Assembly: GCA_946534715.1 (NCBI GenBank)
Contig: CAMNCW010000036.1
Coordinates: 1 to 64,000, forward strand
DNA from: an uncultured Bacteroidales bacterium
GTDB lineage: Bacteria > Bacteroidota > Bacteroidia > Bacteroidales > Paludibacteraceae
DNA length: 64,000 nucleotides
Reading direction: 5' to 3'
The notes under the pieces were generated by a model, which was not told the DNA's origin, did not search any database, and saw only the letters and a program-made list of their open reading frames with translations. This document shows, piece after piece, positions 5,101-64,000 of this stretch (position 1 is its first letter; every line of letters begins with the position of its first letter). Made by a program: the position numbers and the translations under genes.

Positions 5101-5108
5101 CCTAATTC

Positions 5109-5150
5109 TCAAATCTCAAATATCAAATCTCAAATCTCAAATCTCAATTA
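5109..5150. repeat. Family A heptad array (TCAAATC)n between sprA stop and NadR-like start
   Basis: TCAAATC TCAAATA TCAAATC TCAAATC TCAAATC TCAATTA; sprA stop TAA lies in the last unit. Confidence 0.9.
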
Positions 5151-8100
5151 CCTCGTGAGCATTAACTTGATGTTAATACCGATATTATCCGATTTGACGG
5201 GATAACTGGATGAGATGAGAGGAGTTGTCCCCTGGTGGTCGTAGAAGAGCTGTAAATTGATTTTCTGGCTCAATACGTAGTCCGCCGAGATCTTGATGCC
5301 TAACACCTTGTTTCCGCTCGATGCCTGTGTGATACCTTCTTCCACTTTGCGGAGCAGCATCTTCACATCCTTATACGATATATCGACTTGCAGTTTGAGG
5401 TCATTGCTTACTTTCTTTTGAGCGCCGTCTTTGTTCTTGGTGATGAAACTGAGGTTCTTGATGGTGTAACCGCCGCCGATCACAAACTCGCTCGTGTGGC
5501 CTTCTGTCAGTTGTACGCTCGTCACATTGAGTGCCAGGTTACGCTGTTTGCGGTATTCGGCTTTGAGGTTCATCGAGTTCTTCATCGTCATGTTCACACC
5601 GATGAGCGGCGAGAATGCCTCGGTGATGGTCACATTGCTGATGTCGAACGCCGAACTCGGACGCGGGGTATCGGTTGTCACGTCGCGTACGAAACCGATC
5701 TGGCGGTTAGCCGATTCGGAACCGACCCAAGTGGAGTAGGAGCCGAATGAACCGATGGCGTACTTACAGGTGTAAGCGTGCGTCAGGGTGACGGACTTGA
5801 AATGGTCTTTCATCCACGGCAGTTTGCCTAAACCGTCATAGGTCACTGACCAGTTCGGCAGGATGCTCAGGAAGCCCAGGAAGGGGTTGAGGCTCACGCG
5901 GTTCGGGTCTCTGCCGGTATAAGCCGCCAGGAACGCCGGTACTAACACATCGGCGGAGTTGCGGTTCACTTTGCCGTGCTTGCTCGGGTCATACACCGTT
6001 CCTGCCGGTATATTGCTCATAAAGCCCACTGTCGGCAGTACCGTCCCGGTATATTGCCCTTGTACGCGGTCGGTCAGGATAGCCCTGTTCGCGATGAACG
6101 TATTGAAGGCCTCGTTGTTGAAGTTCTCCTCTTGGCGTCCTACGCGCTTGAACATTGTTCCTATTGCCACTTGCGTGATGTTGAACGAACCGGTGATGTT
6201 CTCCTGCAAATGGTCGTAGGAATAGATGATCGAGTTCGATTCGGCCATGTAGCGCTTTCCGTTCAGCTGAATCTTCAGACCCGGCAGCGGCTCCATGGTC
6301 ACCTTAATATCAAAATCGGACGTGTGCGCGCGCGTTGCGGGTTGTACGATAGTGGTGTCCGACGAGAGCCACTGATACCGTTTGGCGCGCTCTAAGATGT
6401 CGTTGCGGATGAAGCCGAACGCAAAATCAAAGCCCGGCGCATAAACGCCGTTGGTTTTGCGCTGACCCATGAATCCGGCCTCCGGCATGAAGCCCGGCAT
6501 CGTCATGGAGTTCGTCTCGCGGTAAGTCACTTGTAACCTTCTGAACATCGTTCCGACGTAAGCGAACATGTCTCCTGCCACTTGTGCCGGTGTCCGCTCG
6601 TTCGGGTCGCGCGTCGTGACGGTCACGGTCGCCGAAGCGCAATCGGCTTTCGGGGTCATCGTGATCTTTGTGTTACCCGACGGGCTGAAATGAACTGGAA
6701 TGCTCTTGCCGGTCGAGTCCGCTACAGTAACCGTCAGCAGTTCGCTGTTGAGCCGGTGGGTGATCTCTACCGCCTCGCCTTTGTGCAAAGCTACGGTCTG
6801 CGTGTACGTCTTGGGTCTGAAGTTCCTCCGCGCACCACGGCCGGTGTAACGCTGTGTCATCGACTTCCAGTATTTGGACTTGCCGTACCAGGTCTCAAAA
6901 TTGATCGTTCCGTCCACTTGCCAGGTCTGCAAACTGGTCACGGTATTACCGCGGTTCACACCATTGGTCGTCGAAGCGGTTCGGGTCCAGTTGTAGTTCG
7001 CGTTGTACGATGCGTTCGCGGTCAATGCGTCCAGACCCGGAATACGGTTGAACGGCACGTTCCAGCTGGCGGTGAACACCTGTTGATAGGTGTATGGCGA
7101 ACCGAATTTGGCTAACGACCGTTGGATCGTATCTTTCCATGCCTCGTATTTGTCGTGGTTGAACTGCTCGTCAAAATAGCCGCTTTTGAGGATCTCCGGC
7201 GTGTATTTACCTTCGTCAATGATCGCATTCATCGCGCTCTGGAACGAGAACTTCATGTTCTTCGTCAGGTCGTATTTGATATCCACGTTGCGGTCCCAGG
7301 TAAAGTCCTTGCTGAACGTCAGATCCATCGCCTCTGCCGACACACCTGCCAAATCGCGCATCTTCATGTGGCTGAAAGTACGGTGCATGTTCGTGCTGAA
7401 TGCCCATGATTGCGGCAGATAGTAGAAGTTCATCTCTTTGAGGAATTTCACCTTCTGCACTTTCTCCACTTTGGCAAACGGCTCCCACGGTTTGGGGTTG
7501 AAGCTGTACGAATATTGGAACGAACCCTTATGGTCGGTGGTGATGTTCTTTTCCATCTCCGGCGAGTGCTCGTTCTGTTTGTTGTACGACGCGGAGATAG
7601 AAAAGTTCGCCGGGTCGTAGAACATGTCTTTCTTCTTCGAGTGGATATTGACCTTCATGTTGCTTACGCTGAACGACGTGGACTCATGCACGGTGTTCGA
7701 ACGGGTCTTGATCGAGTCTTTCTCGCGTTTGGTGTTAAACGTATTGAGGGTCTCGGCTAACTTGACGTCGGTGTCCAACGGGTCGTAGTCGGGACTGGTG
7801 GTCTCGTTGCTGTAGGAAGCGTAGATCGGCAACTGGATCTTCGCCTGCTCCGGGAAGAGACGGCCTGCCTCTATGGCACCGCTGACGCTCAACTGGTAGA
7901 AGTTGTCAAGGTTTCGGTCCAGCACGTTCGATTCGATCGAACCATAGCCGGCGGTCTCTAATCGCCCTGCTACATTCACTTGCGCAATGTCGCTCACCGC
8001 CAGAGCTGCATTCGCCATCGCGGCAACACCGCCTTGCTCGTTGAACTGGCTCAGACGCAACTCGTTCACCCATATCTCACCGCTGGCGTCGTGCTGGCCG

Positions 8101-11100
8101 GAGTTGCGTACACCGATCATGATCGTCGTCACTTCCTCCAAGGTCGGGTTACCGAGCACCGTGATCTTGTTCTGCGGCTTGCCCGAGGCCTCGTCGTAGA
8201 TGACGTAAGGAATAGTGTTGCTCACACCCTCGTTGCCCGCGCGTTTGGCTTTGTTTCGCGCTATCTTCGCGTCCGTCAGCACTTTGAGTGCAAAGTCGAA
8301 CATGTTCTCTTTCGGCCAAACGATCTCGCGGTCTGCGGCGGAGTTGTTATTGTATTGACCCGGCTGTGTCAGCACAAGCGGGATCTCATATTCGTAGTAG
8401 TTGTTGCGCAAGTCGGCTCCCAAACGGATGAAACAGCTCAAATCGCCGTCTTTCAGCTCGGGGTCAATGCTGCTCATCTGCTCCGCGTGGACGAACATCT
8501 GCAGGTTTTTGTATTGACGCATGTCGTAGCCGGTGTTCTTGTACATCGCACGTGCATCGCGCGGACTGAGGTTCATCACGCGCAACACCATAGCCTGCTC
8601 GTTCTGCGCGATGAGTTGTGCCTGACCCGGGTCGGTCTGACGGCTCACGCCCGGAGGTAACACGTAGTTGATCGGAGTACGGGTGTTGTTCTCCTCTATA
8701 TTGACGGTCTGTACGTCTATCTGCGCTCCGGTGTTGACGGCTACGCCCACAGGCGCCAAGTCGCGCGTGTACTGACGCCAGTCGCCACGTACCAGATCCA
8801 TCGTCGCAAAACGAAGGTGCGTCTCTTTCTCAAAGCCTGTCAGGTATATACGCATGAAGCGGATCGACTTCCAGTTGCGGATCGAACCCACACGCTGCAT
8901 GTTCGCACTGTCGCCGCGGAGAGGTATCTTGAACTGATACCATGTCACTTCCTGCGTCTCGCCGTTACGAAGGGTCACGCGGCGCACTTTCTTTTCCGTG
9001 ATGTGCTGGCGGCCGACCTCCATCATGTCCGGACGGAGGATCACTTTGTATTGATAGTATTTCTCGTATTCGTTGAGGGTGTTGTCTTGGTTGATATCCT
9101 CTATATCCGGGGTCATGGTAGCTGCCGTTCCGTAACTCTCGGTCTGCTGCTCCGATGCCGGCGAGTTGCCTTCCGTTCCGTTGAAGTGCTTGTAGCGGTT
9201 CAGAATGCTTACCTGCTCCTGGTCGAAGTCCGTGCCGCGGTAATAGTGGTAGTTATCGCCGGCAGGGTCGTTAAGCGGCGAGAAACGGTCGTTCTCCCAT
9301 TGTGCGAGTACTGAACTGTTCACTTTGCTCCGCAACTCATCTACATACGTCTTGTATGCCGGCCAGTTCTGCTCTTGCGTCGTACTCAGTCCGTTCAGAC
9401 CCACATCCTGCAAAGCCCGCGCACCTGCCTCGTTGCTGAACGCCACTACCGTACTGTTCGTACGCGGCGTGTAACCCCATACCGTCGAATCGATGCGGCC
9501 TTGGTCTGCGGCGCTCACGGGCAAACCGTGCTCGAAGCTCTTCTTGCCGTCGCGTAAGATATCTTCGCTCACATCACCGAGGTTGAAATACAACTCGCCT
9601 TCGTACCCGTCGGGGTTCGTCAGACCCGGATCCATCAACCAGAACTGGATATACTCGATATTCGCTTTTTCGAAGTCCGTGTTGTCCAACTTGCGCATGA
9701 TACCAGCCCAGCGTTTCTTCGGGTTCGTCAACTGACCCTCGCTGTTGATCTCGCTGGCGCTGACGTTATACTGACCGCGCTCGGTGGGGTAGTATGCTAA
9801 GTTCAGTACGGACAGCTTCGTGTCCACGTTGCTGGCTTCCTGACGGTTCGGATAAATCTCTTCCTGATAAACGATACGCGTGCGGTGGTCGCTCAAGGCC
9901 GCTAAGTCATTACGGATGTGGTCCGGCGTGTTCGTCTGCGGGAAACCGAAGATAGGATCGACGGCGAACCATGCCATGTGAGCACGGTTCTTGTTGTAAC
10001 TCGTCTGGTTGATATCTTTGGATTCGGCAAAGACCGTCGGAGTTGCCGCTAAATACCAGTAACTGGGGTAGTGGACGTCGATGTTCGTCGTCGTGGCCTC
10101 AAAATCGTCGATATACGCCGTTCCTACTTTGCCCACATCGCCCGTATGGCCCGGAATGAGGTGCGCAAACTCTGCGTTCAAAGAGAACGTGGAAGGAGCG
10201 GTGGCGGTGATCCAGGGGATCTTGTCTATCGCGTTCGTTAACCATTGCATCTCCGTCTTCCAACTGCCGTTGAGACCCCATATCGTGTTCGCTAACGGCT
10301 CTGAACCCGTGGTCACTTTCGTCGTCAGAGGACGTTCGCGTAAGTGCATGATCGTACCGCCGAGAACAAAGTCTTTGGTGAACTCGTACTCCATATGGGC
10401 GCCGAAAAGGGACTTGCGTTGCATCGAGAACGTCGATTGGTTTTCCAATTTCACATCCACGTTCGTTCCTGACTCCAAGATCGAGCTGTTGAGAATGGTC
10501 ACGGTTCCCATCGTGTAATCGACCGTGTAGTCCACGTTCTCCACGAGGGTCGCACCGCCGGCGGTTACCGTCACAGAACCGCGAGGCACGTTCATCGCAC
10601 CCAAACGGATCTCGCTTCCGTTCGTGCCTTTGTATTTACCGGTCAGGTGGAATTTGTTCTTCTCGCTCAACTCCTGCGCGATGACCAAAGTCGAGTCGTA
10701 CAACTCCGGGAAGCAGTATTTGGCTACTAACCGCGGGTCATTGCCTAAACTCTTTGCCAGGTGACTGCCGAATGGCTCCAATACCGGGAAGATGATGCGG
10801 CCGTTCGAGGCATACACCGTCAGACCCTCTAACCAGTCGAACCGGCCATCAGGACTCGCGTTGTGCTTCTGGTCCAAACGGTCTAAGTTCATCACGCGGA
10901 TCAGCTGTTTGCCGTTGATCGGACCTTCGTTCAGGTATTGTACATCCGTTCCCACCGAGTCGTTTCGGTATGTCACGTATAACTCGAATTTCTCTTGATT
11001 GATGCTGGTCGCGCCTAACGAATAGATGTTTTTCATCATCAGGTCCCATGTGCCGCGGCCTTTCTTACCCGGCGCGTTGGTCGTGCTTTTCAGCATCTTC

Positions 11101-12812
11101 AGAGCCAGGGTCGCCGAACGGTTCTGATCTGCCGGAGAGGAATAGAGCGTATCTACCACCTGGTCGGTCGAGAACTCACCCACTTGGTAAACTTGACCGT
11201 TGTACGTAAATTCATAGGCTACCGCCAACACCTCGTCTTGGTTCAGCGCGCTCTTCAAAGAAATGTAACCCAACGCGGGATTAAGCGTATATTCGCTGCT
11301 GGAGAGCAGACGTGCTGACTCGATCTTGTCGAAATCCACACCGCCTTCCATGCCGTTCAGACCTTCCAATACCGAACTGGTCTGCTGGATGTCGCGGAAG
11401 GGAGTGCCTTGAATGACGCCGTAAAGGGTGTTGGCGTTGTTATCGGGGATCACATTCGCCGCGCTGCTCCAGGCGCTGTTCTGTACGTGCTCGCTGTTTT
11501 CACCTAAGTCCGCAAAAGCCACGATGTTACGTGCCTGGTCATAGTTACCGCGTTTGTTCGTGATCCACACCTCGATCTTGTTGATCTTCACGCCGCTCGC
11601 TACATATGGAACGGAAGCCATCGCCTCTTCGTAATGGTCGCGGAAGAAATGACCGAGGAAGAAGTGCCGGTTCTCGTCGTAACTGTCGCCGCTGATGTCG
11701 AAGCGCGTCATCTGTGCACCGCCTTTGCTGCTTACCGTCTGAGCCTCGCTGTTCTGCTGGCTGATCAACGCCTGAATGCGGAATTTGCCGAACTTCAGAT
11801 TCGTCTTGATACCGAAAAGCGCCTTACTGCCTCGAATCAACGAACTCGGCAAATCCAACGACACGTTTCCGGCTTCGATGCTCTGGATGATGTCGTCCTC
11901 TTCACCTTTGTAGTTCAACTTCAGGTTCTGCTGGTCAAACGAGAACGACGCCTCCGTGTTGTACGAAAGGTTGAAATTCAACTTCTGTCCGACCTTACCT
12001 TGAATGCTGGCTTGGATCTTCTCGTCAAAATCGAAGATGTTGTTGTTTCTCGCCCGGCGCGTCAGAGAGGGATTGTCGATGTACTGGTGTTTGAAGCCCA
12101 ATAACAACTCGGCGCTTCCTTGCATCTTCAGTTGTACACCGCCCGGACCGAACACTTTGTCTGCCGGACCGATGTTGAACTTCATGTCCGTGATGTCGAA
12201 CTTCTTCTCGTTGTTATGCTCCACTTCGCCGATCTTCTGTTGCCAGTACTGATGCATGATCTGCCGCTCCGCGTAGTGGTTGTACTCGTCTTGCGTCAGC
12301 ATGTACGGCGTCGTGATGTCCGTGTCGCCCATTTTCGTGCGGAGCACATAAGTACCCGTCTCCGGCTGATACTCCACCGTCGTGGTGATGTTGTCCGGAT
12401 CCCGCAGGTCCATCGAACTCTTCGGACTGCTTAACTCGCCGAAGTTCTGAGCGCCTAATTGTTTCACTTTGGTCGGAGCCCAGTAACTGCTGTCGGTCTC
12501 CGTCACGAAATCCGCTGCCTCTTCCGGCGTCAGAGCCGTTGTACTCACGCTGTCTTCGCTGTTAGCCTGTTCATAGGCTCTCTTACGCCGTTCCTCACGC
12601 GCTTTGCGGGCTTCCTCTCGCTTCGCCTCTTCCTCCGCCTTACGCGCTTTCTCTGCCTCTTTCGCCGCTTTCTCCGCCTCTTTCTGAGCCTTCTCTTCCG
12701 CTATCAGCTCCTTCAGGCTCTTTCCCTTGCTCTGTGCGGCTACACCCGTGGACAACACAGGCATCCACAGCAACAGACTAACCAATATGATATGAAAAAA
12801 TCTATGTCTCAA
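5148..12812 (-). CDS. sprA: Cell-surface/outer membrane translocon protein SprA (T9SS, gliding)
   Basis: 2554-aa ORF, signal peptide, SprA-like sequence (e.g. ...FNIGPADKVFGPGGVQLKMQGSAELLLGFKHQYIDNPSL...), downstream of ruvA; TTG start. Confidence 0.9.
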   Translation of the reverse strand: MRHRFFHIILVSLLLWMPVLSTGVAAQSKGKSLKELIAEEKAQKEAEKAAKEAEKARKAEEEAKREEARKAREERRKRAYEQANSEDSVSTTALTPEEAADFVTETDSSYWAPTKVKQLGAQNFGELSSPKSSMDLRDPDNITTTVEYQPETGTYVLRTKMGDTDITTPYMLTQDEYNHYAERQIMHQYWQQKIGEVEHNNEKKFDITDMKFNIGPADKVFGPGGVQLKMQGSAELLLGFKHQYIDNPSLTRRARNNNIFDFDEKIQASIQGKVGQKLNFNLSYNTEASFSFDQQNLKLNYKGEEDDIIQSIEAGNVSLDLPSSLIRGSKALFGIKTNLKFGKFRIQALISQQNSEAQTVSSKGGAQMTRFDISGDSYDENRHFFLGHFFRDHYEEAMASVPYVASGVKINKIEVWITNKRGNYDQARNIVAFADLGENSEHVQNSAWSSAANVIPDNNANTLYGVIQGTPFRDIQQTSSVLEGLNGMEGGVDFDKIESARLLSSSEYTLNPALGYISLKSALNQDEVLAVAYEFTYNGQVYQVGEFSTDQVVDTLYSSPADQNRSATLALKMLKSTTNAPGKKGRGTWDLMMKNIYSLGATSINQEKFELYVTYRNDSVGTDVQYLNEGPINGKQLIRVMNLDRLDQKHNASPDGRFDWLEGLTVYASNGRIIFPVLEPFGSHLAKSLGNDPRLVAKYCFPELYDSTLVIAQELSEKNKFHLTGKYKGTNGSEIRLGAMNVPRGSVTVTAGGATLVENVDYTVDYTMGTVTILNSSILESGTNVDVKLENQSTFSMQRKSLFGAHMEYEFTKDFVLGGTIMHLRERPLTTKVTTGSEPLANTIWGLNGSWKTEMQWLTNAIDKIPWITATAPSTFSLNAEFAHLIPGHTGDVGKVGTAYIDDFEATTTNIDVHYPSYWYLAATPTVFAESKDINQTSYNKNRAHMAWFAVDPIFGFPQTNTPDHIRNDLAALSDHRTRIVYQEEIYPNRQEASNVDTKLSVLNLAYYPTERGQYNVSASEINSEGQLTNPKKRWAGIMRKLDNTDFEKANIEYIQFWLMDPGLTNPDGYEGELYFNLGDVSEDILRDGKKSFEHGLPVSAADQGRIDSTVWGYTPRTNSTVVAFSNEAGARALQDVGLNGLSTTQEQNWPAYKTYVDELRSKVNSSVLAQWENDRFSPLNDPAGDNYHYYRGTDFDQEQVSILNRYKHFNGTEGNSPASEQQTESYGTAATMTPDIEDINQDNTLNEYEKYYQYKVILRPDMMEVGRQHITEKKVRRVTLRNGETQEVTWYQFKIPLRGDSANMQRVGSIRNWKSIRFMRIYLTGFEKETHLRFATMDLVRGDWRQYTRDLAPVGVAVNTGAQIDVQTVNIEENNTRTPINYVLPPGVSRQTDPGQAQLIAQNEQAMVLRVMNLSPRDARAMYKNTGYDMRQYKNLQMFVHAEQMSSIDPELKDGDLSCFIRLGADLRNNYYEYEIPLVLTQPGQYNNNSAADREIVWPKENMFDFALKVLTDAKIARNKAKRAGNEGVSNTIPYVIYDEASGKPQNKITVLGNPTLEEVTTIMIGVRNSGQHDASGEIWVNELRLSQFNEQGGVAAMANAALAVSDIAQVNVAGRLETAGYGSIESNVLDRNLDNFYQLSVSGAIEAGRLFPEQAKIQLPIYASYSNETTSPDYDPLDTDVKLAETLNTFNTKREKDSIKTRSNTVHESTSFSVSNMKVNIHSKKKDMFYDPANFSISASYNKQNEHSPEMEKNITTDHKGSFQYSYSFNPKPWEPFAKVEKVQKVKFLKEMNFYYLPQSWAFSTNMHRTFSHMKMRDLAGVSAEAMDLTFSKDFTWDRNVDIKYDLTKNMKFSFQSAMNAIIDEGKYTPEILKSGYFDEQFNHDKYEAWKDTIQRSLAKFGSPYTYQQVFTASWNVPFNRIPGLDALTANASYNANYNWTRTASTTNGVNRGNTVTSLQTWQVDGTINFETWYGKSKYWKSMTQRYTGRGARRNFRPKTYTQTVALHKGEAVEITHRLNSELLTVTVADSTGKSIPVHFSPSGNTKITMTPKADCASATVTVTTRDPNERTPAQVAGDMFAYVGTMFRRLQVTYRETNSMTMPGFMPEAGFMGQRKTNGVYAPGFDFAFGFIRNDILERAKRYQWLSSDTTIVQPATRAHTSDFDIKVTMEPLPGLKIQLNGKRYMAESNSIIYSYDHLQENITGSFNITQVAIGTMFKRVGRQEENFNNEAFNTFIANRAILTDRVQGQYTGTVLPTVGFMSNIPAGTVYDPSKHGKVNRNSADVLVPAFLAAYTGRDPNRVSLNPFLGFLSILPNWSVTYDGLGKLPWMKDHFKSVTLTHAYTCKYAIGSFGSYSTWVGSESANRQIGFVRDVTTDTPRPSSAFDISNVTITEAFSPLIGVNMTMKNSMNLKAEYRKQRNLALNVTSVQLTEGHTSEFVIGGGYTIKNLSFITKNKDGAQKKVSNDLKLQVDISYKDVKMLLRKVEEGITQASSGNKVLGIKISADYVLSQKINLQLFYDHQGTTPLISSSYPVKSDNIGINIKLMLTR

Positions 12813-12813
12813 T

Positions 12814-12841
12814 TTGTAATTTCTAATTTTTAATTTTTAAT
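12814..12841. repeat. Family A heptad array between ruvA stop and sprA start
   Basis: TTGTAAT TTCTAAT TTTTAAT TTTTAAT. Confidence 0.8.
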
Positions 12842-12843
12842 TT

Positions 12844-13449
12844 CTATAGCATCTTCAATGCCTCTCGGATCACGGCCTCTACTTTCATACTCGGGTCGTT
12901 CTTCAATATCTTATCTACCGCTTTCGCGCTCGCTGCACTTGCAAATCCAAGCATCGTCAATGCGCTCACGGCCTCGGCTTTGACGCCGCTGTCGGCCTCT
13001 ACGTCTAACATCGGAATCTCCGTCGGGTCGCCGCCCAAATCAAGTTTGATTGCTTTGTCTTTCAGATCCACGATGATACGTTGGGCGGTCTTCGGACCTA
13101 AACCTTTCACTTTCGACATCGCTTTCGCATTGCCCGTTGCAATTAACATCCGCAACTCGTCGGCGTTAAATGCGCTCATGATCATCCGTGCAGTCGATGC
13201 CCCCACGCCGCTTACCGTCAGCAGTAACTCAAACAACTGCCTCTCTACTTTCGTCACAAAACCATACACCTCATGCGTATCTTCGCGGATAATTTCCGAG
13301 ATAAAGAGTTTCGCCTCTTTCTCTTCTTTTCCCACCAACGCGCTGTATGTCGGCAATGTGATCGCTATTCCGTAACCCACACCCGCTGCTTCTATCACAG
13401 CTTCCGTCGGGTTCAGTTCTGTCAATATTCCTTTTATATATTCTATCAT
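12844..13449 (-). CDS. ruvA: Holliday junction branch migration protein RuvA
   Basis: MIEYIKGILTELNPTEAVIEAAGVGYGI; LLTVSGVGASTARMIMS; VKGLGPKTAQRIIVDLKDK. Confidence 0.95.
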   Translation of the reverse strand: MIEYIKGILTELNPTEAVIEAAGVGYGIAITLPTYSALVGKEEKEAKLFISEIIREDTHEVYGFVTKVERQLFELLLTVSGVGASTARMIMSAFNADELRMLIATGNAKAMSKVKGLGPKTAQRIIVDLKDKAIKLDLGGDPTEIPMLDVEADSGVKAEAVSALTMLGFASAASAKAVDKILKNDPSMKVEAVIREALKML

Positions 13450-13760: not shown

Positions 13761-13840
13761 AATCCGCTTGTAATTACGATACATACACGATAGATATACG
13801 ATAGATACACGATAGATATACGTTAGATAAACGATACATT
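13761..13840. repeat. 80-bp dispersed repeat copy 1 with 11-bp iterons
   Basis: ACGATACATAC ACGATAGATAT ACGATAGATAC ACGATAGATAT ACGTTAGATAA ACGATACATT; 79/80 identical to 46669-46748. Confidence 0.95.
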
Positions 13841-15128: not shown

Positions 15129-15131
15129 CCA

Positions 15132-15166
15132 ATTGTAAATTGTGCATTGTGCATTGTGAATTGTAT
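15132..15166. repeat. Family A heptad array (ATTGTGC) upstream of and touching ispD start
   Basis: ATTGTAA ATTGTGC ATTGTGC ATTGTGA ATTGTAT. Confidence 0.9.
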
Positions 15167-36437: not shown

Positions 36438-36472
36438 TCAATTATCAATTATCAATTGTCAATTATCAATTA
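36438..36472. repeat. Family A heptad array (TCAATTA)n; kduI stop lies in last unit
   Basis: TCAATTA TCAATTA TCAATTG TCAATTA TCAATTA. Confidence 0.9.
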
Positions 36473-39519: not shown

Positions 39520-41174
39520 ATTTCTTTCCTCTCGTACCTGTGTTTTCTTATTCCCCAAACCAATCCGCCGATGAGTGCTAAAATGCCGATAGGCAGACTG
39601 ATACTGAGTGTTTGTATTTGCGCGCGGTATTGATGCGCACGTTGGTCATTCAATAAGCGCAATGCGACGCTTTTCTCCCGTAGCCCGATGATGCCTTCGC
39701 TGTCCGTGAGCCAGAGAATGGCATTGACCGCAAAATCGCGGTTGGAGAACTGCATTCCGCTGTAACGGTCATAACCCATGGGGAGCACTTGTCCTTTCTG
39801 GGTCTCGTTCAACAATATACTGCCGCTACCGATCACCACTTGCCGGGTCTTGACGCCCGTTTTGCGGATTGGCTCGTCGGTCTCGATGCCTTTGGGCATC
39901 ATACGGTGCGCATAAGCGCTGCTGAAAGCTCCTTCCAAAGAAACGGCTATCGGAACGTACTGATAGACGAATGTCTTGGCGTCGGGGTTCATGTCATCCA
40001 GGTTCACTTTGCCCGGTGTGGCGGTTACGCGGCTTGCAGTGCTGGTGGCTAAAAGCACACGTTTCTCAATTCCGTCTTCGCCGCCGACAGCATCAACGGG
40101 GCTGACAAAAGTACTCATCACTTGCCCCATGTTTCGGGTGATAGGTGACCCTTGGCTGGTTAGCAGTAACGGAGCATAGGTCCACGGCATTGGCTGTAAG
40201 TTCGGCTGAGACGGATCGGAACTGACGTTCACCGGTATCGGCAGACATTGGATATCTTGCACCAGGGCGGGGTTGACCCGTACACCGTATCGGAAGAGCA
40301 TATCCGACAGACCTAATTCCATGGCGATGATGGGGGTGAAACCTTCCTGTTGTAGCACTTGTTCGCTGAACTGAACACCGTTAACCGCCCATAGGACAGC
40401 GCCGCCGCGCATGATGTATTGGTCTATCACAAAGCGCTCTGCATCGCTGAATGCCGTAACTGGATTGACGATGATTACCGCCTTGTACCCGTCTAAGATG
40501 TGCGCGTTCACATGCTCGTCCGTTATGCTTCCCCGGTCCACTTGGTAGTACTTGCTCAGCGCGCTCATCAGGTCATAGGTGTGTGCCTCATCCGGCTCTC
40601 CGTGACCTTCCAGAATCGCCACACGCGGGGTCTCTTTTTGTTGCAACAGATGCAACGCTTCCGCAAATGCGAACTCCAACTGCTCAATGCTGGCGTTGAG
40701 GTTCTCTTCGCCGCTCAGGCCGCGGGTGTTCTTGAGCAGACTCACCACAGCGCGTTTGCCTTTGTACTGCATCAACGCATAGGGATAGACGGTGGTCTGT
40801 GCGGTCTTGCCGTTCTGTTCTCGCTCATGGATGACGATGGGATTCAAACCTAATGAATCCGCAATCTCAATTGTGCATTGTGCATTGTGAATTGTGAATT
40901 GTGCATTGTGCATTGTGAATTTCCCATACACGTTCATTTCGTCGATCGTCTCTTCCGTGGCTTTTTTGAGCCTTCGGAAACCCGAATTAAGGTCGCCGTC
41001 TAAGAGTAGCGTGATCTCGATCGCCTCGTCGGTCTGGCGAAGCATGGCCTTGGTCGCTTCGCTCAGACTGTAGTGTTTGTCGTCCGTCATGTCCCAACGA
41101 ACAGGCAATAAGTATGAGGCCGCGATCATCGCCGCCAACACACCAAGCACTATGATAAACCGCTCAATTCTCAA
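39516..41174 (-). CDS. gldG: Gliding motility-associated ABC transporter substrate-binding protein GldG
   Basis: DDKHYSLSEATKAMLRQTDEAIEITLLLDGDLNSGFRRLKKATEE; VAILEGHGEPDEAHTYDLMSALSKYYQVDRG; C-terminal TM. Confidence 0.85.
   Translation of the reverse strand: MRIERFIIVLGVLAAMIAASYLLPVRWDMTDDKHYSLSEATKAMLRQTDEAIEITLLLDGDLNSGFRRLKKATEETIDEMNVYGKFTMHNAQFTIHNAQCTIEIADSLGLNPIVIHEREQNGKTAQTTVYPYALMQYKGKRAVVSLLKNTRGLSGEENLNASIEQLEFAFAEALHLLQQKETPRVAILEGHGEPDEAHTYDLMSALSKYYQVDRGSITDEHVNAHILDGYKAVIIVNPVTAFSDAERFVIDQYIMRGGAVLWAVNGVQFSEQVLQQEGFTPIIAMELGLSDMLFRYGVRVNPALVQDIQCLPIPVNVSSDPSQPNLQPMPWTYAPLLLTSQGSPITRNMGQVMSTFVSPVDAVGGEDGIEKRVLLATSTASRVTATPGKVNLDDMNPDAKTFVYQYVPIAVSLEGAFSSAYAHRMMPKGIETDEPIRKTGVKTRQVVIGSGSILLNETQKGQVLPMGYDRYSGMQFSNRDFAVNAILWLTDSEGIIGLREKSVALRLLNDQRAHQYRAQIQTLSISLPIGILALIGGLVWGIRKHRYERKEI
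40870..40918. repeat. Family A heptad array (7 units) inside gldG
   Basis: ATTGTGC ATTGTGC ATTGTGA ATTGTGA ATTGTGC ATTGTGC ATTGTGA. Confidence 0.95.
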
Positions 41175-41191
41175 TTCTCAATTCTCAATTA
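41164..41191. repeat. Family A heptad array containing gldG TTG start
   Basis: TCAATTC TCAATTC TCAATTC TCAATTA. Confidence 0.9.
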
Positions 41192-42913
41192 TCACTTCTT
41201 TATTTTCTCCCACATCTCCTGGTCGATCTCGACGGGGTATTTGGCGCGCAGGGCTTTGATCCACTCGGCCTCTAAGTAATCCTGGTAGTCGGTGGTCACT
41301 TTGCCTTTCTCGTCTGTCCAACTCTCCGGCGCTTTCAGCTTCTTGCCCATCATCTCCACTACCGGCATCTCTTCGGATGCGGCGGAAGGCACTTGGTCTA
41401 ACTCCCAGAGACCGTGCTGTACTTTCACGTAAGTCACGGTATCTTGATTGATGCGGTGGTTGATATAACTCTTGATCGAATCCGGGTGAGCGCTCTTGAT
41501 GATGGCTTTGGCGGCCTTGGCGCTGTTCTTGTCTTTGGCGTGGATAATATAGCCTTTCCAACGAGGTGCATCCCAGGTGTATTTCTTCTTGTTGGCTTTG
41601 AAGAACGCCTCCAAACCTGCGGTGTCTTTGGCGGCTTTGTCCCATACTTCGTTCAGCGAAACCTCAAAGAGCAGGATGCCGTCGTGGTATTCTTGTACCA
41701 GATGGCGCAGTTCGGTGTATTTCTCCTCCAAGTGCTCGTCGGCGTAAGCGCGCACCTCTGCATCGCTCATGCTTGCCGGCAGATGGTACTCGGCGCGGGT
41801 CTTGCGGATGAAACTCTTGTCCGCCTCTTTCGCACGCTCGTCACGCATCACTTGACGCTTAATTTGAGTGTACATCGAGTCGAGCGGTTGAATACCGCGT
41901 TCACCCTCTTTGAGAATAATATGCCAGCCGTATTGGGAACGTACCGGCGCACTGATCTCACCTTCTTTGAGCGCAAAAACAGCATCCTCAAACGGTTTCA
42001 CCATCATGCCTTTGCCGAACCAGCCTAACTCTCCTCCGCGTGCACTGCTACCACGGTCATCGGACTCGCGGGCGGCTACTTCGGCAAAGTTGTCCTTGGT
42101 CAAAGTGGCGGCAATCGAATCAATCAGCGCTTTCTTTGCGCTCTCGGCGGCTGCATCGTCGCGAGGAACCATCTTCATGATGTGGCTCGCTTTCACCTCT
42201 ATATGGTCGCGCTCCTCTTCTACAAGCACGAAGTGGAAACCGTACTGAGTGCGGAAAATCGGACTGTAAGCGCCTACAGGGGTGTTATAAACTGCCTCCT
42301 CCAACGGATAGACATAGCGGAACGGGGTGATCCAGCCTAACTCGCCGCCGGTCTCTTGTACGTTCGGGTCGGTGCTCACTTCGCGGGCTACCATCTCAAA
42401 CGGGTCGGTCTTGTAGCGAACGGCTTTCGAGCCTCTGGCTTTCACGGGTTTGCCCACGGTCACACGATGGTATGCGTCGGTGATCTTTGCCAATGCTTCT
42501 GCTTCGGTGGCGCTGTCGGAGTTCATCGGGCATTGAATCGCGATATGCGCTGCACGGCGGTCTTTCGACATGCGTTGCCAACTCATCCGGATCAGGCTGT
42601 CCAGCGCTGCCTCGTCTTGAAGGTACTTAGGCGTAGCTTGTGCGCGGTAGCCTTTCAGCTCTTTCTTGAAACTCTCGGTCGTGTCTATGCCTTGTGCTTC
42701 CGCTTCGGCTACTTTGAGCTTGAAATTGATGAACATGTCCAAGTACTCGTCCATGGTCTTGGGATCCACGGCGCCGGCTTGGTTATTCTTCTCATAGATG
42801 TACAAAAATTCTTCTGCGCTGATGCCTTTTCCATTGATGGTCATCAGCGGTTTTTCTGCCCATACGGCCATACTCATCGCCGCGATGGTTGCCAATAAAA
42901 TGCTTTTTTTCAT
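41192..42913 (-). CDS. Peptidylprolyl isomerase (PpiC/SurA-type, two rotamase domains)
   Basis: TGGELGWITPFRYVYPLEEAVYNTPVGAYSPIFRTQYGFHFVLVEEERD; RGGELGWFGKGMMVKPFEDAVFALKEGEISAPVRSQYGWHIILKEG. Confidence 0.92.
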   Translation of the reverse strand: MKKSILLATIAAMSMAVWAEKPLMTINGKGISAEEFLYIYEKNNQAGAVDPKTMDEYLDMFINFKLKVAEAEAQGIDTTESFKKELKGYRAQATPKYLQDEAALDSLIRMSWQRMSKDRRAAHIAIQCPMNSDSATEAEALAKITDAYHRVTVGKPVKARGSKAVRYKTDPFEMVAREVSTDPNVQETGGELGWITPFRYVYPLEEAVYNTPVGAYSPIFRTQYGFHFVLVEEERDHIEVKASHIMKMVPRDDAAAESAKKALIDSIAATLTKDNFAEVAARESDDRGSSARGGELGWFGKGMMVKPFEDAVFALKEGEISAPVRSQYGWHIILKEGERGIQPLDSMYTQIKRQVMRDERAKEADKSFIRKTRAEYHLPASMSDAEVRAYADEHLEEKYTELRHLVQEYHDGILLFEVSLNEVWDKAAKDTAGLEAFFKANKKKYTWDAPRWKGYIIHAKDKNSAKAAKAIIKSAHPDSIKSYINHRINQDTVTYVKVQHGLWELDQVPSAASEEMPVVEMMGKKLKAPESWTDEKGKVTTDYQDYLEAEWIKALRAKYPVEIDQEMWEKIKK

Positions 42914-42959: not shown

Positions 42960-44045
42960 TTATCCTTTCTCCCCCTTTGAGAGGGGGGCGGGGGGTATTA
43001 CGTACTTCTTGTACGTCTTTTCAAACAACCCCACGGCTTGCGCCAAGCTTCCGAATAGTTCGCCTCCCGAGGCATTGGCGTGACCGCCGCCGTGAAAGAC
43101 CTCGCTGGCCCATATGTTCACCGGACGGTCGCCTTGCGAACGGAAGGAAATGCGGATGCGCGGTTTGGGGGTGCCGGGTTTGGGACGTTCCTCACGCATC
43201 ATCACCGAGTAATAGATATCCGCTATCTGCAACGGCATGTTCACGATGCCCTCGGTGTCGCCCACTTTGTAGTGGTATTGGTCCAACTCGTCAGCACTGA
43301 GGGTGATGAGCGCCAAGTGGTATTCGGGGTAGATACGCATCTTGCGGTATAACGCATAACCCGTCATTCGCAAACGGTCTGTCGAGTATTGGTTGAACAC
43401 GGCGTTGTAGATCGCATCTTTCTGTACGCCCGCGCGTAGCAAAGAAGCGATGATGTCGTACAACTCTGCGTTCGTGGAGTTGTAACTGAAATTGCCGGTG
43501 TCGGTCATCAGACCCGTATAAATACATGTCGCAATCTCGTAACTCAACGGATTCCTTTCTCCCTCCCTTGAGGGGAGGGCTGGGGTGGGGTTGACTCCTG
43601 CTATCAGCTTGTACACCACTTCACATGCCGAACTGGCGGTGGGGTACGAGTGTACCTCCGTCCATATATCCAAACTGCATTGCGGATCCAACAGGTGGTG
43701 GTCAATCATCACTTTGGGGCAGGGGTTTGCTAACATCTTTTCGCCAACGGGACCGATGCGTTTGGGGTCGTTGAAATCCGTGCAGAGCAACAGATTCGCC
43801 CCTTCGATGAGTTTGTTGCAAACGGCGGTCTCTTTTTCATACACGCGTATTTGGTCTGCTCCGGGCATCCAGTTGTAGAACGCCGGAAAAGCATTCGGTA
43901 CAATCACCGTGCATTGTGAATTGTGCATTGTGCATTGTGAATTGCAATAGTGCCACAATGCCAATGCTGAACCCATCGCGTCACCGTCGGGCGCCATGTG
44001 CGTAAGTATTATAATATGTCCTGCTTTTGCTATTAATTCGTCCAT
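42960..44045 (-). CDS. DHH/DHHA1 family phosphoesterase (NrnA-like)
   Basis: ILTHMAPDGDAMGSALALWHY; IVPNAFPAFYNWMPGADQI; MIDHHLLDP; FHGGGHANASGGE. Confidence 0.92.
   Translation of the reverse strand: MDELIAKAGHIIILTHMAPDGDAMGSALALWHYCNSQCTMHNSQCTVIVPNAFPAFYNWMPGADQIRVYEKETAVCNKLIEGANLLLCTDFNDPKRIGPVGEKMLANPCPKVMIDHHLLDPQCSLDIWTEVHSYPTASSACEVVYKLIAGVNPTPALPSREGERNPLSYEIATCIYTGLMTDTGNFSYNSTNAELYDIIASLLRAGVQKDAIYNAVFNQYSTDRLRMTGYALYRKMRIYPEYHLALITLSADELDQYHYKVGDTEGIVNMPLQIADIYYSVMMREERPKPGTPKPRIRISFRSQGDRPVNIWASEVFHGGGHANASGGELFGSLAQAVGLFEKTYKKYVIPPAPLSKGEKG
42967..42999. repeat. Family B-I element encoding DHH C-terminus
   Basis: ttctccccctttgagaggggggcggggggtatt; protein IPPAPLSKGEKG*. Confidence 0.85.
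43559..43592. repeat. Family B-II element inside DHH gene
   Basis: ctccctcccttgaggggagggctggggtggggtt; minus-strand peptide NPTPALPSREGE. Confidence 0.9.
43909..43943. repeat. Family A heptad array inside DHH gene
   Basis: GTGCATT GTGAATT GTGCATT GTGCATT GTGAATT; peptide NSQCTMH NSQCTV. Confidence 0.95.
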
Positions 44046-44986: not shown

Positions 44987-45010
44987 TTCGCCTAATTCGC
45001 CGTCCTATAA

Positions 45011-45043
45011 TTCTTAATTCTTAATTTTTAATTTTTAATTTCC
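45011..45043. repeat. Family A heptad array upstream of the PBP-AraC regulator
   Basis: TTCTTAA TTCTTAA TTTTTAA TTTTTAA TTTCC. Confidence 0.85.
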
Positions 45044-46668: not shown

Positions 46669-46748
46669 AATCCGCTTGTAGTTACGATACATACACGATA
46701 GATATACGATAGATACACGATAGATATACGTTAGATAAACGATACATT
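46669..46748. repeat. 80-bp dispersed repeat copy 2 with 11-bp iterons
   Basis: 79/80 identical to 13761-13840 by eye. Confidence 0.95.
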
Positions 46749-54355: not shown

Positions 54356-55702
54356 ATGAAGAAGTTTTATGCAATGATTACTGCTGCGCTTATTAGCGTA
54401 AGTATGTTTGCAGCAACCCCTACTGTCAATGATTTGACTAAGTATCAGAAAGCAGATCATTATGTAGCATGTTTCCAAGCTCCTGCCGATGCTCGTTGTA
54501 ATGACATCGTATGGGTAGGTACCTACAATGAGTGGAATCTTCAAGATGAAGACATTCTTGTTTGTGAGAATCTTGCTGGTTTTGATGGTTGGTACGTTGT
54601 TGTAGTTCCGGTAGATGCTGAAGGTAAGAACGAAGGTAAGCCGGTAATCGTAAACGAGTGTGGAGAGCGTAACTGGGAGTATCAGTGCGGTACTGTAGTT
54701 GCTGTTGATTGTCCGGATGGACTTATTAATCCGAATGGAGCAGAATGTGACCTCAAAGGATGGCCAACTGACAAGCCGGCTATTGTTGATGTTCAAGCAT
54801 GGAAGAATGGAAACAATCCTTGTACCAAGCAGTGTGCTGCTGTTAACATGACGTTCATTGTATATCCTCCTTTCTGTGAGGATAATCCTGAATTGGCTCC
54901 GACTATGAAAGGTTCTTGGAACTGGGATGCAGAGCCTGTCGTATTTGAATTTAAGGGTTCCTACTTTGAGGCTGTAGTAAAAGTTGATCCTTCTATCTTG
55001 AAATTCAAATTCAATAACGATCCTGCTGGTTCGTGGGACAATCAGTTTGAATACTTTGTTCCCGAAGATACTGAAAATGATGTACCTGCTCACTGGGCAC
55101 AATTCCACGACTTTGAGTTCTATAACACGGAGGATCCTCAGAATAATTTCTTTAAATATGAGAACAATACCTTAACATTTGATTTCTCGGATACAGAGAA
55201 GTTCCGTTATGCAACCTGTGGTCTTGATGAAACTGAGTACGATGTCACAATTAACCTCAAGACGACGGCTGATGCTCCTGCTGCTGGTATTGAAGTTGCT
55301 GGTAACTTTGCAAGCGAAGACTGGAGCGTATTCGCAATGATGACTCCTTCCGAAGATGGTGTTTATAGTGCAACACTGAAAGCAAAGGCTGCTAACGTAT
55401 TCAAATTCCGTGAGGCAGGTACTTGGGATAACGAAATCGTTTATGTAAATAAAGTTACCGATGAAGGTGGCGCTAAAGGACTTGACGATATCAAGTTTGG
55501 CGATAAATGGGATGAAAACCATGTAATCAATCTTGATTTCAGTGATCCTACTATCTATGTATGGAAAGCAAATTGGGTTGCTCCGCAAGGCATCGAGAAC
55601 GTTGTTCTGACCGAGAAGGCACAGAAAGTTGTTGTTGATGGTGTTCTCTACATCGTTCGTGACAACAAGATGTTCAACGTACAAGGTGGCCAAGTTCGTT
55701 AA
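54356..55702 (+). CDS. Secreted protein with C-terminal sorting-like tail, probable SusE/F-like or starch-binding-like
   Basis: Signal peptide; repeated GSWNWD / FKFREAGTWDNE segments; tail AQKVVVDGVLYIVRDNKMFNVQGGQVR*. Confidence 0.6.
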   Translation: MKKFYAMITAALISVSMFAATPTVNDLTKYQKADHYVACFQAPADARCNDIVWVGTYNEWNLQDEDILVCENLAGFDGWYVVVVPVDAEGKNEGKPVIVNECGERNWEYQCGTVVAVDCPDGLINPNGAECDLKGWPTDKPAIVDVQAWKNGNNPCTKQCAAVNMTFIVYPPFCEDNPELAPTMKGSWNWDAEPVVFEFKGSYFEAVVKVDPSILKFKFNNDPAGSWDNQFEYFVPEDTENDVPAHWAQFHDFEFYNTEDPQNNFFKYENNTLTFDFSDTEKFRYATCGLDETEYDVTINLKTTADAPAAGIEVAGNFASEDWSVFAMMTPSEDGVYSATLKAKAANVFKFREAGTWDNEIVYVNKVTDEGGAKGLDDIKFGDKWDENHVINLDFSDPTIYVWKANWVAPQGIENVVLTEKAQKVVVDGVLYIVRDNKMFNVQGGQVR

Positions 55703-55782: not shown

Positions 55783-55840
55783 CGTCCTCACTCTTGCATA
55801 TTTCAGAAAAAAGTTGTTTACGCACATTTTAGCGCCACTT

Positions 55841-56005
55841 TCGCGGGTATTTCGCGGGTATTTCGCGGGTATTTCGCGCTGTGACTAAAACTGAATCTTA
55901 AAAATCGTATATTTTATCACGGTATCTCGTCGGTGTCTCGTCGGTCTCTCATGATCTATCGTCCCGTATGTTTCCCGTAAGCGAGTCGTAAGAGGGTCGT
56001 GTCGG
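55841..56005. repeat. 11-bp phased intergenic array
   Basis: (TCGCGGGTATT)x3 TCGCGCTGTGA ... CACGGTATCTC GTCGGTGTCTC GTCGGTCTCTC ... TCCCGTATGTT TCCCGTAAGCG AGTCGTAAGAG GGTCGTGTCGG on one 11-nt register. Confidence 0.65.
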
Positions 56006-61439: not shown

Positions 61440-63155
61440 TTACTTGCAACCCTTGAAGGCATTCTTGCCGATTTGTACTGCGGGCGCCAGAACAGGCGTC
61501 CGTAAGTATTTACATTCCATGAATGCTTCAACACCGATCGTTTGCAGCGAGTCGTTCCATTGCACCTCGCGCAAACTGCGACAACCGAAGAAGGCGCCGT
61601 CCTCTATCTCTTTGAGACGGGTGTTGAGGATCACTTTCTGAAGATTGATACATTGGGAGAAAGCACCCTTTTGCAACACTTTGAGGGACTCCGGGAGTTT
61701 TATCTCCTCTAACATCTTACACTCCATAAATGCGCTTTCTTCAATCATATGTATATGATCCACCAGCGCGATCCCGCGTAGTTGCATGCAGTTGTAGAAC
61801 GCACGTTTGCCGATCCGGAAGGTGGATTTGGGAATATTGATTTCTTCGAGCGCTACACATCCGTCAAAAGCCCCGTCTCCGATGGCATACAATCCGTCCG
61901 GAAGAACGATTTTATAAAGCCGTGTGCATCCCTGGAATGCCTCTTTGGGGAGCTGGTTCACGTTTTCCGGTATCACTATCTTATGTAAGGTGGCGCATCC
62001 GGCAAATACTTGTTCGCCCAGAAAATCGAGCGTCTTAGGCAGTTCGACCGCCTCCAGATGGGAACAACCGGCAAAAACACCTGCATCTATCCGTCGGAGG
62101 TGCGCAGGAAGAGCGATATTCTTGATCCCGCGGCACATGAAGAAAGTAGCGCGTTCGAGCACTTCAATCTGATCGCTCAACACTTGTTCTTTGAGATTGA
62201 TGCAACCGTAGAAAGCACCGGCTCCAAGACGCTCCAAGGTATTGGGCAGTAGAGCATTCTTCAAGAGCGGACAATCATAGAACGCATAGTTGCCCACTTC
62301 GCGAACGGTGGAGGGGATGGTCACATCCGTCAAACTCTCACATCCGAAGAACGCCGCTGTGGGAATAGCGGTGATGCTTTCGGGGATCTCGACCGTTTTG
62401 AGTTTCTTTTGATTGCTAAAAGCGCGCTCGGCTATCAGACGGATAGGATTTTTGCTCTTGAAGATATATTTCTCCGGCAGATCCGCATTCGTCGCTACCA
62501 GACAATCGTCGATGATGAGTGCTCCTTTTTTCCATTTGTTCTCGGTTAGGTAGATGCCCGAATGGGTGAACGCATCCTCTCCGATCGAAGTGACACTACT
62601 CGGAATAACTACCTTCAGGAGGTTCTTACAGTTATAGAACGTCTCATGGTCGATACGCGAGATGCAAGACGGCAGTTCGATCCGTTCAATCGTTTTGTTC
62701 CCGGCAAAAGCACCTGCGGCAATGAGCCGGGTTCCTTCCGGCACTACAAAACGCGGTTTGATATTCTTGTCCGTCGCAATGAGAATACTGTCTATCCACA
62801 GGCATCCTTCCGTCCAGTTCTCTTTGTTTGACATGATACCTGTTCCCTCGAACGCCGACCGATAGACACGTTGCAGTGTGCGCGGTAAAACGACAGCCGT
62901 CAGGTTTTTGCAACCCTTGAACGCCTTGTCGCTGATAGAGGTAACGGTATAGGTATTTTGCCCCACAACAATCTGCTCGGGAATAAAGAGTTCGCCGGAC
63001 GCTTTGGGGTTCAGTGCTACTTCTGCGGTGAGATGATTGATATCGATGGTATAATACACATCCTGATATTGTGCATCTTCTGCGTTAGCGGTGAATACGG
63101 CGGCCAGTAACATCAAAATACAGGTCGCCTGCTTGAATAAAGAGTTTGCCTTCAT
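61440..63155 (-). CDS. BspA-type leucine-rich repeat surface protein
   Basis: Signal peptide MKANSLFKQATCILMLLAAVFTANA; repeated (F)xGCxxLxxIxLPxxLxxIGxxAF units. Confidence 0.92.
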   Translation of the reverse strand: MKANSLFKQATCILMLLAAVFTANAEDAQYQDVYYTIDINHLTAEVALNPKASGELFIPEQIVVGQNTYTVTSISDKAFKGCKNLTAVVLPRTLQRVYRSAFEGTGIMSNKENWTEGCLWIDSILIATDKNIKPRFVVPEGTRLIAAGAFAGNKTIERIELPSCISRIDHETFYNCKNLLKVVIPSSVTSIGEDAFTHSGIYLTENKWKKGALIIDDCLVATNADLPEKYIFKSKNPIRLIAERAFSNQKKLKTVEIPESITAIPTAAFFGCESLTDVTIPSTVREVGNYAFYDCPLLKNALLPNTLERLGAGAFYGCINLKEQVLSDQIEVLERATFFMCRGIKNIALPAHLRRIDAGVFAGCSHLEAVELPKTLDFLGEQVFAGCATLHKIVIPENVNQLPKEAFQGCTRLYKIVLPDGLYAIGDGAFDGCVALEEINIPKSTFRIGKRAFYNCMQLRGIALVDHIHMIEESAFMECKMLEEIKLPESLKVLQKGAFSQCINLQKVILNTRLKEIEDGAFFGCRSLREVQWNDSLQTIGVEAFMECKYLRTPVLAPAVQIGKNAFKGCK

Positions 63156-64000
63156 ATATAAATTTACGATTTGACGATTGACGATTGATAGTTTCATCCA
63201 TTCCCTGCGGATGGTTATTGACGATACCTGAAAGTAAGCAGATAGCATTCTCTATCAGCCGTTTGCCGTCGGTGGTGAGATAGGCGGTCGAATACTCGCT
63301 CACGCCGATCATGTACATCGCTTGGGGTAGAGTAGTGCCGTTACAGTCGGTTCCTTGCGGCAGATATACGATGGAACTATAGTCCGCTTGAGATACAGGT
63401 GAAGCCAAGAGATCAAAGCCTTCGGTATTCGTCCATGTGGAGATAGCCGTAACGGCCTTGGTGTTGCATTGTGCGAAGAGTTGTACCGTCCCCTCAGTGA
63501 TAGTTACGCCTTTGAAAAGCGGATGAAGAGGATCCGTTACCGAGACAGAGAGATCCTCTGTGTTGACGGCATTTCCCCAATTCCAAACGGTATTCTTGAG
63601 CAAGAACGGTTTGAGAAGTACCATCGGTTTGTCATAGCCTTTGAGTGCCGCAAAACCCGTAGCACCGCTATTCGGTTTGGGCCCCAGGACAATCACATCG
63701 TACGTACTATAATCCACTTCCGGGTCGGTCGCGTCCGCTTCAACTACCCATAAACTGTCATTCGCACGCAGGTATTTGAGCAGCGCTTTGTCTTCGCTTG
63801 CTCCCGGCAAGGTTACAAAAGCAACCGCCTTTGTACCTTTCGGCTGAACAGACGGAACGGTGTCGCCTCCTGCCGGCTCCGGGTCATGGCGTTCGCCCGG
63901 AGACTCATAGCAACCTAAATCCGGTGCTAAACCGTTATACCCCAAGTTGACATCTATTCCGGCATCAATAAGACGAGAGGTAGAGGCAAGCCGGAGGTAT
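63085..64000 (-). CDS. Right-handed beta-helix/pectate-lyase-like secreted protein, C-terminal part (5' end outside window)
   Basis: YLRLASTSRLIDAGIDVNLGYNGLAPDLGCYE at window edge; tail RKFIYEGKLFIQAGDLYFDVTGRRIHR*. Confidence 0.65.
   Translation of the reverse strand, partial: YLRLASTSRLIDAGIDVNLGYNGLAPDLGCYESPGERHDPEPAGGDTVPSVQPKGTKAVAFVTLPGASEDKALLKYLRANDSLWVVEADATDPEVDYSTYDVIVLGPKPNSGATGFAALKGYDKPMVLLKPFLLKNTVWNWGNAVNTEDLSVSVTDPLHPLFKGVTITEGTVQLFAQCNTKAVTAISTWTNTEGFDLLASPVSQADYSSIVYLPQGTDCNGTTLPQAMYMIGVSEYSTAYLTTDGKRLIENAICLLSGIVNNHPQGMDETINRQSSNRKFIYEGKLFIQAGDLYFDVTGRRIHR

Follow-up and report, generated by a model that had tools for sequence, protein, structure and literature searches.

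Two genes on the minus strand of the 64,000-nt stretch of Paludibacteraceae DNA analysed here (the window) share 71 nt in different frames, and these 71 nt are very probably a true dual-coding region. Read in the upstream frame, they would give the final 23 residues of the C-terminal tail of a secreted pectate-lyase-like beta-helix protein, and read in the +1 frame, the Sec signal peptide of a BspA-like leucine-rich-repeat (LRR) protein. The A/T-rich, unstructured linker codons ahead of the tail would act as the start region of the downstream gene. The evidence is comparative (conservation, constraint on each frame, the composition of the start region, and homologues elsewhere that carry ordinary signal peptides), and from it we infer translation, export, the function of the tail and the order of the evolutionary steps. 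The features concerned are as follows.

63085..63155, minus strand: 71-nt overlap, probably dual-coding, with the downstream gene in the +1 frame (open reading frames read from the sequence)
63085..64000, minus strand: 3' part of the upstream gene, encoding a predicted secreted Pel9A-like right-handed beta-helix protein (open reading frame, Pfam, orthologs)
63088..63165, minus strand: C-terminal tail KFIYEGKLFIQAGDLYFDVTGRRIHR of the upstream protein (tail profile match)
63085..63087, minus strand: stop codon TAA of the upstream gene
61440..63155, minus strand: gene for the BspA-like leucine-rich-repeat protein, 571 aa (Pfam LRR_5, PF13306, E = 5e-107)
63081..63155, minus strand: MKANSLFKQATCILMLLAAVFTANA, predicted signal peptide of the BspA-like protein (n-region, h-region and c-region recognized by eye)
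63153..63155, minus strand: start codon ATG of the BspA-like gene
63156..63195, minus strand: A/T-rich, weakly folded region of degenerate heptads before the start (TRF array at 63162-63188)
5148..12836, minus strand: gene for SprA, the type IX system (T9SS) translocon, elsewhere in the window (PF14349, E = 6e-205)

The upstream gene runs past the window edge; on its contig (C36, 63085-65220) the whole open reading frame encodes 711 aa, with an N-terminus, MKKHLLSLVLCTWSICTFA, that is its own signal peptide and with a match to the Pel9A-like right-handed beta helix (Pfam PF22842, E = 3.2e-10). Its stop codon lies at 63087-63085 and the ATG of the BspA-like gene at 63155-63153 in the +1 frame, so that the two genes overlap by 71 nt. 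The sequence-only reading from which this work started had claimed an out-of-frame overlap of this length, and its coordinates were exact, on the minus strand, with the upstream frame ending in KFIYEGKLFIQAGDLYFDVTGRRIHR before the stop. The BspA-like N-terminus encoded by the same DNA reads MKANSLFKQATCILMLLAAVFTANA followed by EDAQ..., and 71 of the 75 nt of the signal peptide fall within the overlap. The mature protein is predicted to begin EDAQYQDVYYTIDINHLTAEVALNPK and carries the LRR_5 repeats of BspA-like proteins.

Comparison of orthologous pairs had been proposed as a check on the overlap, and 178 genomes of the genus, all of the genomes compared being metagenome-assembled (MAGs), were searched. 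A close ortholog of the upstream gene was present in 78, and the junction could be read in 77 and classified in 76. In 54 of these 76 the pair overlapped by 62-71 nt; the frame was +1 in every case and the start was the homologous ATG. In four the BspA-like gene followed without overlapping, and its signal peptide was a conventional one located past the stop (L022, L075, L112 and L114); L075 was placed in this set because its conventional signal peptide follows the stop, even though it keeps an in-frame ATG. The remaining 18 of the 76 lacked the BspA-like neighbour. Both genes had the length of their orthologs, and the orthologous pairs kept the overlap. As judged from these 54 pairs, whose sequences are related and whose counts are not independent events, the overlap is far beyond chance. 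In L110, the upstream gene was apparently cut short or frameshifted ahead of the tail, and the downstream start was retained.

A frameshift or sequencing error, or the absence of either product, had been named as a possible undoing of the observation; as far as sequence can tell, neither applies. In 33 of the 37 closest records of the BspA-like gene, the tail had an ATG 62-71 nt ahead of its stop codon. One of the 33, L183, duplicates the non-overlapping pair L075, and its removal leaves 32. The public records of this group are Bacteroidales or Paludibacteraceae MAGs, mainly from rumen or other ruminant gut, and sequencing error was excluded because these 32 of 37 records, from several assembly projects, show the overlap.

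To assess what each frame imposes on the other, each tail was recoded synonymously with the codon usage of the genus. The ATG was retained in 46% of draws, and the ATG together with an open frame in 30%. Mean maximum hydropathy was 0.76 in the recoded tails compared to 2.76 in the 54 real overlap sequences, and ATG, open frame and hydropathy were kept together in just 0.3% of recodings. The reverse recoding, in which the signal peptide was fixed, left a tail with its motif, turn and stop in 0.14% of draws. The ATG and open frame were present in 54/54 orthologs with the overlap and in 0/18 of those without the neighbour; the latter lacked the ATG altogether (0/18) and had a mean maximum hydropathy of 0.76.

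Synonymous divergence was assessed in 16 sister pairs, in keeping with the comparative test of constraint that had been suggested, and was depressed in both frames. It was 0.109 in the overlap compared to 0.356 in the rest of the gene for the upstream frame, and 0.064 compared to 0.355 for the downstream frame. Control tails from four non-overlap pairs had no such drop (0.51 in the tail, 0.59 elsewhere). Fisher tests gave 3e-18 for the upstream frame, 3e-26 for the downstream frame and 0.23 for the control tails, but because they assume independent sites and the sequences are related, the effect size counts more than the p-values. Nucleotide divergence was lower in the overlap than in the downstream gene in 15 of the 16 pairs, in an ungapped comparison in which at least two pairs (L061/L062 and L076/L077) were inflated by downstream misalignment. 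By these measures, purifying selection acts on both frames in the overlap, and both are constrained.

These results bear on the explanation that a single frame is real, the +1 signal-like peptide being a by-product of the codons of a functional tail, or the reverse. The tail family is widespread and the +1 frame is open in 9 of the 18 tails without a neighbour, which would suit such a by-product. Yet neighbour-less tails have neither the ATG nor the hydrophobic core, recoding of either frame alone hardly ever keeps the other, and synonymous divergence is depressed in both, which together make this explanation extremely improbable. The comparisons instead indicated that the overlap is real, conserved and doubly constrained.

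The ATG of the downstream gene is usually spelled by the Asn/Asp-Gly codons of a tail motif, K-[FY]-[IL]-x-[ND]-G-x-L-[FY]-I. In some species an ATG lies one codon earlier, either with both ATGs present or with the later one lost. The window is a case of the latter; its start is one codon upstream of the usual position, and Glu in place of Asp/Asn abolishes the usual ATG. Start-codon misannotation is the usual cause of such overlaps, and in a 2008 survey 5' extension was given as the cause of 57% of the overlaps exceeding 60 bp between co-directional genes (PMC2478687). Under that explanation the BspA-like protein would start later, for example at an ATG 29-32 nt before the upstream stop, which is the commonest alternative start, and the overlap would be shorter or absent. 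Most species do have a second in-frame ATG. A start there, however, would leave about 11 residues and no basic n-region, L068, L076, L077 and L088 have no later ATG at that place, and L023 has no alternative at all, the next ATG, GTG or TTG lying over 60 nt beyond the stop of the upstream gene. The upstream ATG is kept in 54/54, with Lys/Arg after it and the start region just before it, and synonymous sites are constrained throughout the overlap. Misannotation is thus very unlikely. An in-frame stop lies at most three codons upstream of the ATG in 11 species or pairs, and in some relatives the overlapping ATG is, from these sequences, pinned by flanking in-frame stops and missing alternatives. 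The earlier claim that one DNA segment encodes a C-terminal tail in one frame and a signal peptide in another was supported by conservation, constraint and this pinned ATG.

The heptads upstream of the start codon in the window run TCAATCG, TCAAATCG, TAAAT..., and the same bases double as codons for a linker of the upstream protein, TINRQSSNR. The heptad-like array previously noted before the second start was confirmed as a period-7 array of 3.7 copies (63162-63188) adjoining the ATG. Across the 54 pairs, AT content was 81% from -20 to 0, 66% from -40 to -20 and 41-54% further upstream, and local folding energy was -0.3 kcal/mol at -20 compared to -5 to -8 kcal/mol further upstream. Position -3 was an A in 91% of pairs, and positions -11, -12 and -13 were each an A in 91-96%. 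Start regions of Flavobacterium johnsoniae, in which As at -3, -6, -12 and -13 and low structure favour initiation (PMC6847099), are similar in the A at -3, -12 and -13 and in low structure near the start. They differ in that position -6 is T here, and in that here these bases are also codons of the tail of the upstream protein. The start in the window lies one codon upstream of the usual position, which puts the favourable As of -3, -12 and -13 out of register there.

The tails differ accordingly between overlapping and other genes. The Lys codon was AAA in 53/54 overlap tails compared to 24/43 other tails, the residue preceding Asn/Asp had a codon with a middle A in 53/54 compared to 19/43, with Arg avoided, and the Asn/Asp codon was AAT or GAT in 47/54 compared to 4/43. 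These differences suggest that the tail is adapted to the start of its neighbour, and that codons and residues of the upstream protein have apparently been bent toward a Bacteroidota-type start region. Lag-7 identity in the linker was 0.47 in the overlap group compared to 0.30 in both other groups, which indicated that the heptads go with the downstream start. Heptads as a general feature of the tail linker were rejected, since lag-7 identity was high in the overlap group only.

Coupling by termination-reinitiation falls off within about 20 nt (PMC10666635), and it is unlikely here because the start lies about 70 nt before the stop. The A/T-rich, unstructured linker before the tail makes internal initiation probable, and we infer that the BspA-like gene is initiated directly in this way. 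Programmed +1 frameshifting would produce a different product, a fusion of the enzyme to the BspA repeats by a slip within the tail, with the ATG incidental. Frameshifting would fit a downstream gene that is in the +1 frame in every pair and an overlap that has been conserved. Frameshifting, however, needs neither a conserved ATG nor an A/T-rich unstructured start region, and a hydrophobic signal peptide in the middle of a fusion would be senseless. The stops in the downstream frame at most three codons before the ATG in 11 species mean that any slip must fall within the short overlap. The one candidate RNA hairpin, predicted within the overlap between +20 and +60 (counted from the start) in the 54 species, was rejected as a conserved structure; its strong local fold of about -13 kcal/mol had a z of only -1.3 relative to shuffles, and its covariation was not clearly beyond that of shuffles or slid partners. 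We consider frameshifting most improbable, and internal initiation on a dual-coding overlap the better reading.

The signal peptide in the +1 frame has the anatomy of a type I Sec signal peptide. A hydrophobic core was present in 54/54, and a putative cleavage site preceded by small residues was identified by inspection; the maximum 9-residue hydropathy in the window was 3.16. The first 14 residues of the 54 overlapped signal peptides had a net charge of 0 to +3, with Lys/Arg after the ATG. The sequence-only reading had called the terminal signals of both products functional, which is presumed here. The signal peptide runs beyond the upstream stop in L084, L095, L100 and L101. Heptad repeats were seen within the BspA-like signal peptides of L095, L100 and L101, past the upstream stop, and of L198; one example is a (CACCTTT)n insertion that encodes SPFTFHLSP.

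The tail of the upstream protein, which includes the peptide LFIQAGDLYFDVTGR, is about 27 residues long and follows the pattern K...NGQLYI..G...YD.TG..V, with the alignment consensus xxKxxxNGQLYIxxGxxxYDxTGxxxx; other examples are at 55619-55702 of the window and in L011, L140 and L144. Its resemblance to the tail of the protein encoded at 54356 had been correctly recognized, and tails of this kind recur about 60-90 times in each genome. With the tail profile, 62 copies were counted in this incomplete genome; the three relatives had 61-88, two of them 88 and 73. Most of the matches listed sit at the ends of long open reading frames. SprA and PorV were found in 9/9 genomes, one SprA being that of the window, and the genus also carries a few classical CTDs. 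The upstream protein combines an N-terminal signal peptide with this recurrent tail (61-88 per genome in four genomes), as expected of T9SS cargo, and the tail probably serves the type IX system in sorting or anchoring. Like the CTD of T9SS cargo (PF18962; PMC5445135), it is a C-terminal module on many proteins in a genus with SprA and PorV. It differs in length, about 27 residues compared to about 70-80, and by eye resembles just the first half of a CTD (...YDxxGRxV). In Porphyromonas, the last 22 residues of the CTD, which hold PxGxYVV and KxxxK, suffice for secretion (PMC5445135). Neither motif occurs in the last 22 residues of the tail, and its sorting role is offered as a proposal because of this; the tail may be a shortened T9SS sorting tail. 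It had no match in Pfam or NCBIfam, PF18962 and the sorting-domain models included. At about 30 loci, no other tail gene overlapped its neighbour by tens of nt, the most being 4 nt.

Where BspA homologues occur in other contexts, their signal peptides are ordinary, and in some of them a similar mature start follows, which suggests that the overlapped signal peptide was probably overprinted de novo. The overprinting probably arose once, in this genus: an ATG would have formed where the tail has its Asn/Asp-Gly codons, the +1 frame, being open, would have joined the downstream gene, and the ancestral signal peptide would have been lost. In the upstream-protein tree the overlap rows fall within a single large group of 66, in which the neighbour has been lost in places, and L112 and L114 lie outside it; a single origin is the simplest but not the only reading, because forks inside the group are partly open. 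L022 and L075 are nested in the overlap group, and both have an open +1 frame without the hydrophobic core, L075 retaining an ATG at 65 nt. This is as expected of relics left after the gain of a new signal peptide, and the opposite direction is also possible. It is likely that a Sec signal peptide was born de novo over the frame of a C-terminal sorting tail, replaced the ancestral one and was kept through the diversification of much of the genus as a conserved functional overlap of more than 60 nt, with tail, signal peptide and start region on about 100 nt.

In a large survey, no overlap of more than 60 bases between bacterial genes of the same direction proved genuine, and shorter conserved overlaps are known, such as those of comQXPA (PMC4008528). 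The closest known case is likewise same-strand, partial, out-of-frame and conserved across a genus or family. The present overlap differs in its 62-71 nt in 54 species with little start or stop variation, and in that both encoded ends look export-related. The comQ-comX-comP genes of Bacillus (PMC4008528) also have conserved same-strand overlaps between neighbours, of 13-22 codons, but those extensions vary and stem from stop or start mutations within part of a clade; here, in contrast, one frame of the overlap carries the greater part of a signal peptide and the other carries a tail. No report of a bacterial C-terminal tail and signal peptide sharing DNA was found in the literature searched, the coverage of which was incomplete. 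Overprinted same-strand overlaps are already known, and the sharing of DNA by tail and signal peptide appears to be the new part. An overlap of more than 60 bases has been kept in 54 species with both frames under measurable selection, and non-overlapping and neighbour-less relatives serve as natural controls, offering a traceable case of a signal peptide arising by overprinting. The case further suggests that the start-region needs of one gene altered amino acids of its neighbour. A gene caller that shortens long overlaps would strip the BspA-like protein of its signal peptide.

Seven-base tandem repeats adjoining a start codon are also known as the TAACTGA heptads of Beggiatoaceae, Cyanobacteria and a few Bacteroidetes (PMC4679880). 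The array before the BspA-like gene is likewise a 7-base repeat next to the start, but its unit is not TAACTGA; the units are AATCGTC, AATCATC and similar, and variable, and the array lies inside the coding sequence of the upstream gene. Heptad arrays in the window were enriched before starts (6/43, compared to 5/669 gene-body stretches), and no other period tested was enriched before start codons there. Varied seven-base tandem units (TCAACTT, TCTCAAA, ATTGTGC, TCAATTA and others) are scattered through the window, with arrays at 1057-1087, 2518-2547, 5107-5147, 12811-12846, 15131-15164, 36438-36472, 40870-40921, 41163-41199, 43909-43944 and 45008-45041, among others. A near-identical heptad array, TCAATCGTCAAATCGTAAAT, was seen in L003, L004 and L007 (each at about 1501-1531) and in L008 (about 1501-1525). 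It lies in frame within open reading frames matching a glutamate-synthase-like oxidoreductase, chorismate synthase and the RsgA GTPase, and also just upstream of an apparent tRNA, and it looks mobile or expanding. Distant 11-bp tandem arrays in the window also share units, TTTCGCGGGTA at 97-134 and 55839-55878, and ACGATAGATAC at 13776-13836 and 46684-46744.
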